Positions 1,411 to 5,947 of a DNA stretch of 6,164 nucleotides are shown here, one piece after another. How positions within the stretch are numbered: position 1 is the first letter of the stretch; the number at the start of each line of letters is the position of its first letter. The notes below the pieces were generated by a model, which was not told where the DNA came from, made no database searches, and saw only the letters and a program-made list of their open reading frames with translations. The DNA is taken from NCBI GenBank assembly GCA_016209155.1, contig JACQWU010000099.1:1-6164 (forward strand), written 5' to 3'. Position numbers and translations under genes: made by a program. The DNA comes from Candidatus Desantisiibacteriota bacterium (lineage in GTDB: Bacteria; JACRDZ01).

Positions 1411-1439
1411 TTGACAATAATATAGCAATTTAGTATTAT
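1411..1439 (+). promoter_or_regulatory. Strong sigma70-type promoter for the TPR-ATPase/tRNA/PHP/TPR cluster
   Basis: A perfect -35 TTGACA (1411-1416) is followed after 17 nt by -10 TATTAT (1434-1439). The predicted start is about 1446, with a leader of roughly 33 nt before ATG 1479. It is back-to-back with the leftward ogg promoter, with about 41 bp between the two -35 boxes, so a regulator bound between them could affect both directions. It is the only convincing promoter seen upstream of the tRNA and downstream genes, so it probably serves them too. Confidence 0.72.
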
Positions 1440-1478: not shown

Positions 1479-4400
1479 ATGGTTAATAAAGATAAATTAT
1501 TTAAAAATGCCAGTGAATATTATCAGCAGGGGAAATGGGATAAAGCTGTTGATATATACAAAAAAATATTAAAAACAGATCCTGATAATATTCAGGTTTT
1601 TAATATGCTGGGAGATGTTTATGTAAATAAAAATGACATGGATAAAGCTTATGAAGAATACAAAAAAGCTGCTGATGCATTTGAAAATCAGGGATTACTA
1701 AATAAAGCTATAGCAATAAATAAAAAAATTTTGAGAATACAACCGGATTCTATTGATATTTATTTTAAATTAGCTGACCTTTACACTCAGCTTGGACTTA
1801 TCGGGGAAGCCAATGAACATTATCTAAAAATTGCGGATATTTATTCGCAGGAAAAGAAAATAGACAAACTTCTGGATATTTATAAAAAAATAGTAGACCT
1901 TAATCCAAAAAATATAATAATACGCCAGCGGCTTGTAAAAATGTATTTAAATGAAAATATGAAAGAGCAGGCAGCAAAAGAATATTTAGAAATAGCAGAT
2001 AAATACAAAGAAATTAATCAGGCTGACAATGCCATTTCTATGCTTGAAAATGCTAAAAATGAATTGCCGGAATATATTGAAATAAACCGTATGCTGGGGA
2101 GCCTGTACCGTGATAAAAACAATCCTGAAAAAGCACTTACGGAGATACAAAAAATACTGCTAAAAAATCCTCTGGATAAGAATGCTTTTATTGAATCCGG
2201 GAAAATGTATAAAACTCTGGGGAAATTCGATGATCTTATTTCACTGTATGAAAATTTTTTAAAAAATTCTACCGGTGAAAATGAATTAAAAAAAGAATTA
2301 CTTTCACTATATTTAGAAAAAAATATTTTAAACAAAACAGAAAATATTTTAAAAGAATTTCTTGAACAAGATAAAAACAACATAGACCTGCATACTCAGT
2401 TATTAGATATTTTACAAAAACAAAATAAAGAAGAAGAAGTTTTCAAGGAACATGAAATCCTGGCTAAATTATATTTGCAAAATAAGGAGCTTGATAAAGC
2501 AAAGTTTTTTTTTGAATATATTCTTAAAAAAGACCCTGAAAATTTATATTATTTACAATCTTATTCTGAAATCTGTGAATTATTAAAAGACAAAGAAAAA
2601 GCCGTTGAATGTTATTTGCATATTGCCGAGATAAAAGACAAAATCGGGGAAAAGGATGAAGCTGTTAAATATTATCAAAAAATAGTGCGGATTAATCCTG
2701 ATCAAATTGAATTGCTTTTTAAGCTGGTGAATATTTATAAAAATCAAAAAAAATTCAATGAAGCTATAGAAAACTTAAAAATTATAATAGATAAAAAACC
2801 TGATGATTTAAATGCATTAAAAAAACTCGGGGAAATATTTTTTGAATCAAATAAATATGAAGAAGCAAGGGAAATATATTTAAAAATATTAACTCTTTCA
2901 CCTGATAATAAAACACATGAAATATTAGCAGAAATATATCTTCATGAAAACAAGATTGATAAAGCTACCGATGAGTTAAAAAATATTCTTGAATCAGACC
3001 CCGGGAACATTGAAATAAGGAGCAGACTTTCTGAATTAAAACTGCTTTCATTCCCGCAAAAACCGGAAAAAACACAGGAATCTGAAAGTACTGCTGCTAC
3101 ATATTTAAAAAAAGAAATAAAAGACCTTAATATTGATACTAAAAAAACTGTAAAAGCTGATAAAGAGTTTGAAATTCCCATGGAAACTATTATGAATTAC
3201 CTAAGGGAAGCTAAACTCAGAGTATCACATAAACAAATTGAACTGGCGGTGGAGCTATATATAAAAATATTAAAACTGGATTTTGAAAATGAAGAATCAC
3301 ATGTAATGCTGAAAGAACTTGTATCAGATGACAGATATCTGAAAATCATAGATGATATAAAAAATAAAAAAGAAGAGATTTTTAAACAAAAAGCCAAAGG
3401 GATTATTGAAAGGCCGCAATTCCTTGAAGAAGATGAAGAAAAAGAAACAGATGCGCTTAAAATCATTTTAAAGGAATTTAAAAGCGGAATAACAGAATAT
3501 GTAGAGGAAGAAGATTTTGAAAATCATTATAATCTGGGAATTGCATATAAAGAAACAGGTCTTCTGGACGAAGCAATAGAAGAATTTAAAATTGCCGCAA
3601 ATAAAGAAGAAAATATTGTACAGTGTTATGGAATACTGGGAATATGTTATATGGAAAAAGGGATATATGGTTATGAGGAATTCTATGGATTAAATGAGTC
3701 TCCTTTCTCAAATGCACCTGAAAGTAAATTTTATTTTGAGACTAATCAACATGCAGAAGCAATGAAACGTTTGTTTTTTGCAATAGATACGATGAAAGGA
3801 TTAGCCGTAGTGCTTGGTGATATTGGGACAGGAAAGACCACTCTTGCACGTAAAGTGCTTGATAGACTTCAAACTGAAAAATACGAAGCTGCCTTACTTA
3901 TAATTGTGCATAAAGCTATAACTGCCGAATGGATTTTACGCAAAATCGCTCAGCAGCTTGGGGTTGAGAATCCTTCTAATGAAAAAGTTCATCTGCTGGA
4001 TCAACTATTTAAACAATTATTAAAAATAGATGAAATGGGTAAAAAAGCTGTAGTATTAATTGACGAAGCTAATATGCTTGAAAACAAAGAAATCATGGAA
4101 GAATTCAGAGGGCTTTTAAATCTCGAGCTTCCCGGTAAAAAATTGCTTTCATTAATTTTAATCGGTTTGCCCGAATTAGATGAGCATTTAAAATTGGATG
4201 AACCATTAAGACAAAGGGTTGCCGTTAAATTTACTTTGCGCTCTCTCTCTTTAAATATCGCGGCTGAATATATAAAACACAGATTGAAAATTGCAGGGAT
4301 AGAGAATCCTGAAAGAATATTCAATGATGAGGCTATAGTTGCAATTTATAAATATTCAAACGGGATACCGCGTTTAATAAATACAATCTGCGATAATGCT

Positions 4401-4538
4401 TTATTTGAAAGTTTTCTTATTAAAAAATTATCGATTAATAAAGAATTAATTAAAACTGTATCTTTTGACCTGGGATTAAATGTTGGTTTGAAAGAAGATA
4501 AAAATAATGAAATTTGTGGTAGTGATAGGCGGGTGTAG
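1479..4538 (+). CDS. TPR superhelix fused to ExeA/GspA-type AAA+ ATPase
   Basis: A 1019-residue cytosolic protein with no signal peptide or membrane span. Residues 4-522 are tandem TPRs in register, mixing 34-residue units with 54-residue units in which adjacent TPRs share a helix. A charged linker (about 523-565) and a helical region (566-670) follow, then one more TPR (679-712) and half of another (713-730). The AAA+ domain starts directly at GYEEFYGLNESPF (731-743). It has Walker A GDIGTGKTT (780-788, Lys786), Walker B VVLIDEA (858-864, Asp862-Glu863), RQRV (911-914, possible arginine finger) and a sensor-2-like GIPRLIN (962-968). This is the ExeA/GspA/MshM ATPase family, which powers or guides assembly of secretins and pili through the wall. 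The ExeA membrane span and peptidoglycan-binding domain are absent. The leader has only a weak GGGGA (1463-1467) 11 nt before ATG. The 3' end overlaps tRNA-Gly by 10 nt. A scaffold-ATPase for an envelope complex is inferred; the partner is unknown. Confidence 0.9.
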   Translation: MVNKDKLFKNASEYYQQGKWDKAVDIYKKILKTDPDNIQVFNMLGDVYVNKNDMDKAYEEYKKAADAFENQGLLNKAIAINKKILRIQPDSIDIYFKLADLYTQLGLIGEANEHYLKIADIYSQEKKIDKLLDIYKKIVDLNPKNIIIRQRLVKMYLNENMKEQAAKEYLEIADKYKEINQADNAISMLENAKNELPEYIEINRMLGSLYRDKNNPEKALTEIQKILLKNPLDKNAFIESGKMYKTLGKFDDLISLYENFLKNSTGENELKKELLSLYLEKNILNKTENILKEFLEQDKNNIDLHTQLLDILQKQNKEEEVFKEHEILAKLYLQNKELDKAKFFFEYILKKDPENLYYLQSYSEICELLKDKEKAVECYLHIAEIKDKIGEKDEAVKYYQKIVRINPDQIELLFKLVNIYKNQKKFNEAIENLKIIIDKKPDDLNALKKLGEIFFESNKYEEAREIYLKILTLSPDNKTHEILAEIYLHENKIDKATDELKNILESDPGNIEIRSRLSELKLLSFPQKPEKTQESESTAATYLKKEIKDLNIDTKKTVKADKEFEIPMETIMNYLREAKLRVSHKQIELAVELYIKILKLDFENEESHVMLKELVSDDRYLKIIDDIKNKKEEIFKQKAKGIIERPQFLEEDEEKETDALKIILKEFKSGITEYVEEEDFENHYNLGIAYKETGLLDEAIEEFKIAANKEENIVQCYGILGICYMEKGIYGYEEFYGLNESPFSNAPESKFYFETNQHAEAMKRLFFAIDTMKGLAVVLGDIGTGKTTLARKVLDRLQTEKYEAALLIIVHKAITAEWILRKIAQQLGVENPSNEKVHLLDQLFKQLLKIDEMGKKAVVLIDEANMLENKEIMEEFRGLLNLELPGKKLLSLILIGLPELDEHLKLDEPLRQRVAVKFTLRSLSLNIAAEYIKHRLKIAGIENPERIFNDEAIVAIYKYSNGIPRLINTICDNALFESFLIKKLSINKELIKTVSFDLGLNVGLKEDKNNEICGSDRRV

Positions 4539-4603
4539 TTCAGCGGTAGAACGCAAGCTTCCCAAGCTTGATGTCGAGGGTTCGACTCCCTTCACCCGCT
4601 CCA
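4529..4603 (+). tRNA. tRNA-Gly (anticodon CCC), CCA encoded
   Basis: A full cloverleaf can be drawn. The acceptor GCGGGTG (4529-4535) pairs with CACCCGC (4593-4599). U8-A9 is followed by a D arm with stem GTTC/GAAC. The anticodon stem CAAGC/GCTTG (4554-4558/4566-4570) encloses the loop TTCCCAA with anticodon CCC at 4561-4563. The variable loop has 5 nt. The T arm is GAGGG/CCCTT with loop TTCGACT, containing one G-U pair. Discriminator U4600 is followed by genomic CCA (4601-4603). It closely resembles E. coli tRNA-Gly(CCC) as known. It reads GGG codons. The first 10 bases overlap the end of the upstream protein gene, and no separate promoter is evident, so it is probably released from the operon transcript by RNase P and 3' nucleases. 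Confidence 0.97.
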
Positions 4604-4628: not shown

Positions 4629-5282
4629 ATGATAGATTTTCATACACATACATTATTTAGCGATGGAGATCTGCTGCCGTCTGAATTGATTCAAAGAGCC
4701 AAAATTAAAGGCTATAAGGCAATCGGGATTACTGATCATGTTGATGAATCTAACATTGAAGATGTTGTTTTAAAAATTACAAAATTTTCAAGGGAAATTA
4801 ATAAATTAAATGAAATTTATGTAATACCGGGAGTTGAGATTACGCATGTCACTATAATATTTATTTCCAATTTAGTTAAAAAGGCAAGAAAACTCGGTGC
4901 AAAGCTTGTAATTGTACACGGAGAAACGATTGCAGAACCGGTTGCAAAAGGAACAAATATGGAAGCCCTAAAATCAGATATCGATATCCTGGCTCATCCG
5001 GGACTTATCAGTATTGATGAAGTTAAACTGGCAAAAGAAAAAGATATTTATTTAGAATTAACAACAAGAAGAGGACATTCTTATACAAACGGACACGTAT
5101 TAAAATTATCAAAAAAGATAGGGGCAAAGATAGTTATTAATAACGATGCTCACCTGCCGGAGGATTTATTACCGGAAGAATTTATTAAAAAAATAGCTTT
5201 AGGATCAGGTATGGACAATAATGATTTTCAAAAGGCTTTAATAAACGCATCAAATTTACTAAAAAAAATTAAGAACATTTAA
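4629..5282 (+). CDS. PHP-domain metal-dependent phosphoesterase (histidinol-phosphatase-like)
   Basis: A 217-residue soluble protein consisting of a single PHP domain, a distorted TIM barrel with a trinuclear metal site that hydrolyses phosphoesters. All nine expected metal ligands are visible: His5 and His7 (DFHTHT), Asp12, His37 (TDH), Glu70 (PGVE), His97 (VHGE), His123 (AHPG), Asp173 and His175 (NDAH). Other conserved landmarks are PVAKGTNMEAL (104-114) and TNGHVLKL (153-160). The stretch after Glu70 reads THVTIIFIS, where relatives as I recall them carry a proline-rich turn (THVPP). The length and frame are intact. It resembles proteins labelled histidinol-phosphatase or PHP-domain proteins, but no histidine gene is nearby, so the substrate is unknown. 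It starts 25 nt after the tRNA CCA and ends 20 nt before the membrane TPR gene, so it sits inside the same probable operon. It could act on a phosphorylated metabolite, a nucleotide or a surface-polymer precursor; the sequence does not decide. Confidence 0.9.
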   Translation: MIDFHTHTLFSDGDLLPSELIQRAKIKGYKAIGITDHVDESNIEDVVLKITKFSREINKLNEIYVIPGVEITHVTIIFISNLVKKARKLGAKLVIVHGETIAEPVAKGTNMEALKSDIDILAHPGLISIDEVKLAKEKDIYLELTTRRGHSYTNGHVLKLSKKIGAKIVINNDAHLPEDLLPEEFIKKIALGSGMDNNDFQKALINASNLLKKIKNI

Positions 5283-5302: not shown

Positions 5303-5947
5303 ATGTCATTAAAAAAATACAGAACAATGGGTAACGCAGATGAAAAATCTTTTTTTGATTTTTTTAAAAAAAATTTTAAAATATTAATCATTTGCGGAGG
5401 TTTTTTATTTTTATTATTAATTTTTATAATTGGATATAGCTCATATAATGAGAAAATAAAAGATGAAAGTCTTAAAATTTTTGAGGAAACAATTAAACCT
5501 TATCATGAGATATTGGTTAAAAACGATAAAAAAAGCCTAAAGGAAATGACAATTAGGGCAAACGGTTCATTTTCAAAAATCAAGGATGATAATATAAAAA
5601 CTTTAAGTTCGCTATATATGGGAAATTTTTCTATTGATTTAAATGAATTCAAAGATGCCATTAAATATTATGAAGAATTCACCAAAAAAAGTGATGATAA
5701 ATTTTTGCATATAATAACACGGCTGAATCAGGGATTAGCTTATGAAGAATTAAAATTATATCCTCAGGCTTTAGAATGTTTTCAAAAAGCGCTGCAAATT
5801 TCAGAACCTAATTTTTTAAAAAATGAACTGAATATGGCAATAGCCAGATGTTATGAAAAAACAGGGAAAATAGATCAAGCTAAAATTATTTACAAAAATT
5901 TAGCCGATTCCGAAGAAGCTAAATATCGATTAAAAAATCTTCCGTAG
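5303..5947 (+). CDS. Single-span membrane protein with periplasmic TPRs (YfgM/TPR_21-like)
   Basis: A 214-residue protein with a short charged N-terminal tail (1-26), one very hydrophobic segment at about 27-45 rich in Ile, Leu and Phe, and a soluble lysine-rich C-terminal domain. The N-tail is positive, which predicts an inside tail and an outside (periplasmic) C-terminus. After a helical stretch (about 48-95), TPR motifs are seen at about 98-131, 136-169 (LNQGLAYEELKLYPQALECF) and 172-204 (MAIARCYEKTGKIDQAKIIY). Size and layout match the YfgM-type family: anchored proteins that in E. coli associate with the SecYEG translocon and periplasmic chaperones. Sequence identity to YfgM itself cannot be judged here. 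It is the last gene of the cluster started at 1479, 20 nt after the PHP gene, and could be the membrane partner of the cytosolic TPR-ATPase. That is inference from order only. Confidence 0.8.
   Translation: MSLKKYRTMGNADEKSFFDFFKKNFKILIICGGFLFLLLIFIIGYSSYNEKIKDESLKIFEETIKPYHEILVKNDKKSLKEMTIRANGSFSKIKDDNIKTLSSLYMGNFSIDLNEFKDAIKYYEEFTKKSDDKFLHIITRLNQGLAYEELKLYPQALECFQKALQISEPNFLKNELNMAIARCYEKTGKIDQAKIIYKNLADSEEAKYRLKNLP

Follow-up and report, generated by a model that had tools for sequence, protein, structure and literature searches.

A TAG inside a tRNA-Gly(CCC) gene as the stop codon of a bacterial TPR-ATPase gene

The TPR-ATPase gene and the tRNA that contains its stop codon

The window, meaning the whole stretch of 6,164 nt analysed here, comes from a draft genome of 3.08 Mb (79% complete, 352 contigs). 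On its forward strand it carries a gene for a TPR-ATPase of 1019 aa (1479..4538, read from the ATG at 1479). The sole tRNA gene of the window, a tRNA-Gly(CCC) with an encoded CCA, was placed at 4529..4603 on the same strand by ARAGORN and Rfam (70.8 bits, E 1.8e-14 in Rfam). As proposed in the initial annotation, 10 nt (4529..4538, + strand) are common to both genes and the TAG stop codon of the protein gene at 4536..4538 lies within the tRNA; ORF, ARAGORN and Rfam coordinates all confirm this. The reading frame ends ...GAT AGG CGG GTG TAG, and since the acceptor stem of the tRNA is complete (7 bp, GCGGGUG/CACCCGC), the TAG is equivalent to U8-A9-G10. What is found here is a real protein gene with its stop codon inside a sound tRNA gene on the same strand. 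The next gene past the tRNA encodes a PHP-domain phosphatase of the PRK06361 type (4629..5282, +), followed by a TPR membrane protein gene that likely belongs to the same operon (5303..5947, +). In genome G001 these two genes, in the same order, also come after a tRNA-Gly(CCC).

The reality of the protein gene is seen in its TPR repeats and in an AAA_22 domain at residues 773-903 (Pfam), an SgmX-like TPR part being joined to an AAA_22 ATPase of the ExeA / PEP-CTERM-ATPase type. The ATPase part (3660..4535, +) is 51-61% identical to free-standing ATPases of other phyla. Two more specific identities were rejected. The match to SgmX, a type IV pili formation protein (NF052243), reaches 167.8 bits over residues 3-262 against a cut-off of 1800 and is a resemblance only. 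The closest named model for the ATPase part, the XrtA/PEP-CTERM-associated ATPase TIGR03015, scores 203.2 bits over residues 732-998 against a cut-off of 324.5, so that the domain type is shared but not the equivalog assignment. The in-frame fusion of the two parts lies just past '...EKGIY' (window 3640-3700). In G017 and G067 the TPR and ATPase parts are separate adjoining genes, and a TPR relative in G002 runs on beyond the fusion point without any ATPase.

The C-terminal end of the protein had been described as a conserved domain ending near residue 1000, followed by 19 residues of run-on tail. The domain end holds approximately, the match to TIGR03015 stopping exactly at residue 998, the leucine of DLGL, which leaves 21 residues (4473..4535, +) instead of 19. 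The run-on character of this tail is rejected on its length, which lies within the range of orthologues, and on its coding-like codon use. Among 80 orthologues, 2-194 residues follow the same leucine. Codon use in the tail is at the 60th percentile of coding windows, and none of 455 stop-free intergenic windows is as high, in an intergenic sample of just 4.5 kb with overlapping windows.

Other overlaps in the genome and the neighbourhood in relatives

A TAG inside a tRNA is ordinary. It occupies positions 8-10 in 21 of 28 RNA genes of this genome and in 100 of 221 elsewhere, so an ORF that runs into such a tRNA in the matching frame will always end there. A genuine gene that runs into a tRNA is uncommon. 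Among the 28 RNA genes, which were those with sufficient upstream DNA and were tested individually, 3 are entered by a real gene, compared to 0 of 118 in three genomes of the same phylum (Fisher p=0.006, or p=0.02 if one spurious ORF that touches a tRNA by 1 base in a same-phylum tRNA array is counted). At the 221 RNA genes from elsewhere, all candidate ORFs of at least 90 aa were judged spurious by reading of the peptide alone. Apparent overlaps at L024 (tRNA-Gly), L166 and L167 (tmRNA), L229, and the tRNA arrays of L020 and L027 were rejected, as they read like spurious ORFs crossing tRNA arrays or GC-rich DNA. The ends of coding sequences crowd tRNAs in this phylum, with gaps of 0-11 nt in 4/4 genomes. 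A limited literature search for bacterial CDS/tRNA stop overlaps returned no direct precedent and so speaks only weakly for their absence.

The two further overlaps of the genome have the same orientation. The zapA gene (G000:C352, L103), whose product has a complete Pfam ZapA domain (E 1e-20, residues 11-96 of 102), ends ...AAG CTG GGG CAG TAG, where the TAG is U8-A9-G10 of a tRNA-Ala(CGC) on the same strand. An apparent metF lies downstream of this pair. The other is a CooC/MinD-like ATPase gene (G000:C256, L110, L164; Pfam CbiA, E 4e-19) that stops at a TAG formed by nt 35-37 of the tmRNA on the same strand. Within its reading frame, 33 nt upstream of the tmRNA, a promoter-like TTGACT-17-TAAAAT is present, and the tmRNA can therefore be made independently.

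The history of the overlap can be read from relatives of the ATPase. In genome contigs these were recovered with an alignment as query; the window protein alone gave no matches in that search. A same-strand tRNA-Gly lies downstream of a related ATPase gene in 13 of 80 named loci from other phyla (L227-L306). The same holds for G017, the one genome representing its phylum, where the tRNA is again tRNA-Gly(CCC). The anticodon is CCC in Deltaproteobacteria, Thermodesulfovibrionia, Nitrospiria and one Proteobacteria MAG, and GCC in FCPU426, Goldbacteria and two MAGs labelled Proteobacteria and Methylomirabilis. In all 13 loci and in G017 the ATPase stop is located ahead of the tRNA, at spacings from 0 to about 2,000 nt (about 25 nt in G017, 107 in Thermodesulfovibrionia, 89-154 in FCPU426 and 100 in Goldbacteria). 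The shortest is seen in CP070770, where the TAA of the ATPase gene directly abuts tRNA-Gly(CCC) (L255, CP070770.1, 4108-4111); an RNase P cut there would leave a message with the stop codon as its final three bases. In G002, of the same phylum, the TPR relative without ATPase ends 57 nt ahead of a tRNA-Gly(CCC). Since relatives with the same neighbours stop ahead of the tRNA, the overlap is derived. The suggestion that an original stop was lost and that the tRNA now supplies one is thereby upheld.

Judging from its spread across distant phyla, the adjacency of ATPase and tRNA-Gly is old, with independent arrivals of tRNA-Gly in the neighbourhood of the ATPase gene as a possible alternative. 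The simplest history is an old order of TPR gene, ATPase gene and tRNA-Gly, in which the TPR and ATPase genes would here have been fused and the spacer and stop lost. The ATPase gene and its tRNA-Gly thus form an unexpectedly old pairing of protein and tRNA; the TPR partner of the ATPase is SgmX-like.

Transcription and the probable fate of the message

Promoter-like sites were scored out of 12 against a sigma-70-type consensus within 110 nt upstream, a measure by which non-consensus promoters would be missed. By consensus match only, a promoter-like TTGACA-17-TATTAT (11 of 12; 1411..1439, +) is situated upstream of the TPR-ATPase gene, about 40 nt from its start. Strong TTGACA-type sites, scoring at least 10 of 12, precede ten RNA genes of the genome. 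The best score ahead of tRNA-Gly(CCC) is 7.5 and that of tRNA-Ala(CGC) is 9.0, both within the coding background of 5.5-9.5, and no terminator-like site was found between the TPR-ATPase gene and its tRNA. The lack of a site above background, compared to the ten RNA genes with a strong match, fits a single shared transcript without proving it. The shared transcript supposed in the initial annotation is accordingly rated likely on promoter evidence.

The type of tRNA may also bear on this. Both overlapped tRNAs, Gly-CCC and Ala-CGC, belong to the C34 types. C34 tRNAs can be backed up by U34 tRNAs, which perhaps relaxes the need for an independent promoter. Across G000-G003, C34 tRNAs are nearer than other tRNAs to the same-strand gene upstream. 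This also holds when arrays are left aside by comparing only tRNAs without another tRNA within 400 nt upstream (28 vs 59 tRNAs, p=0.003), in a grouping that was chosen after two cases had been seen. This closeness is a lead to the reason for the overlap. Low demand for the tRNA was rejected as the full reason: GGG accounts for 24 of 79 Gly codons in the window genes and is not rare, so low demand is at most part of it.

The explanation that is considered probable, if not strongly so, is that the spacer and stop eroded until the ATPase gene ended on the TAG of the tRNA, that one transcript covers both genes, and that RNase P turns it into a non-stop message whose ribosomes are rescued. The ancestral neighbourhood of TPR gene, ATPase gene and tRNA-Gly would have become compacted until the ATPase gene had lost its own stop and spacer, an erosion that could be tolerated since tRNAs have a TAG of their own. 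The single transcript would begin upstream of the TPR-ATPase gene. Ribosomes arriving before processing would terminate normally at the UAG of the tRNA. RNase P, expected from the tRNA 5' end to cut at 4528..4529 (+ strand), two bases into codon 1017 (AG|G), would then release the tRNA and leave a non-stop mRNA ending ...GAU-AG. For later ribosomes on the cut message, rescue would come from tmRNA-SmpB or an ArfB-like factor. On this view, each transcript would serve first for protein and afterwards yield a tRNA and a dying message.

Genes for the proposed rescue are present. The genome holds a tmRNA with the tag ANQELALAA, SmpB (E 8e-63), the release factors RF1/RF2, and a third, small RF-1-domain protein resembling ArfB. 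This last protein has a GGQ motif and a basic tail; the models it fits best are those of release factors and include ArfB, which stays below cut-off. Set against the favoured explanation are the draft state of the genome, which leaves room for a one-base error, and a cluster of stops in the +2 frame right before the tRNA. Also, as GGG is not rare, read-through may supply less expression than tRNA-Gly(CCC) needs.

A minor possibility is that the overlap has no consequence, with a tRNA promoter inside the ATPase gene, transcripts that are mostly separate and a shared TAG that merely saves space. The promoter-like site in the CooC-like frame ahead of the tmRNA provides a model for this arrangement in the same genome. 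However, the best promoter score of tRNA-Gly(CCC) does not leave the coding background, and the absence of a terminator-like site between the genes also argues against separation.

A sequence or assembly error is improbable. It would require the loss of one base from the tail sequence, perhaps from the A-run at 4500-4504, and a real stop TAA-TGA ahead of the tRNA; one extra base would indeed bring a TAA at 4505-4507 and a TGA at 4508-4510 into frame. In the shifted frame 5 of the 8 codons right before the tRNA are stops, the densest such cluster of the TPR-ATPase ORF, so a one-base deletion, whether real or an artefact, could have shifted an older stop out of frame. On the other side, such off-frame stops are frequent in the ORF, at 15% of codons, the codons past the A-run stand in the present frame at the 54th percentile of coding windows, a level reached by 2% of intergenic windows, and two other genes of the genome likewise end within RNA genes.

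An evolved switch, in which TPR-ATPase output depends on how RNase P cleavage and translation are balanced and rescue tagging limits the protein, is permitted by the overlap geometry, by the rescue genes and by an arrangement common to three genes of one genome, but it is very improbable, as relatives with the same neighbours retain a stop ahead of the tRNA, so that the overlap is not conserved, and no evident function is common to the three genes.

Returning to spacer and stop erosion, the overlap is most likely tolerated compaction more than an evolved switch, and compaction of this kind would most likely set tRNA maturation against message integrity. A wider reading is improbable: that several genes here gave their stops to RNA genes, RNA maturation makes non-stop mRNAs of their messages and rescue is a routine part of their expression, with the tmRNA case coupling tmRNA maturation to demand for tmRNA.

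Significance and comparison with known systems

By these sequence comparisons, the overlap is real, uncommon and derived, and is one of three in the genome. If the transcript is shared, non-stop messages would be a routine side product of maturing tRNAs in this bacterium, and the locus would be a natural, predictable substrate for testing the competition between RNase P, termination and ribosome rescue. A TAG at U8-A9-G10 occurs in roughly half or more of the RNA genes that were examined and can terminate genes whose own stop has been lost. Many annotation pipelines trim or drop coding sequences that overlap RNA genes, and CDS ends beside tRNAs are therefore easily mis-annotated.

In animal mitochondria, polyadenylation completes incomplete stop codons. 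According to two reviews, protein and tRNA genes abut or overlap there, and the 3' ends of neighbouring mRNAs are created when the tRNA is excised (PMC4394434, PMC6056719). The present locus resembles this tRNA punctuation in that a protein gene and a tRNA gene overlap and excision of the tRNA would make the mRNA 3' end; it differs in that the whole UAG sits inside the tRNA and would be removed by the cut. Mixed mRNA-tRNA operons are also known in Escherichia coli, where secG-leuU and thrU-tufB give common transcripts that are cut by RNases. Protein and tRNA on one transcript are predicted here as well, whereas in those operons the stop lies outside the tRNA and processing leaves a complete message. 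Trans-translation by tmRNA-SmpB (PMC3985003) is what would be expected to happen to ribosomes on the cut message, and both of its components are encoded in the genome. Unlike the usual non-stop mRNAs, which arise from damage or decay, those of this locus would be made by normal tRNA maturation.
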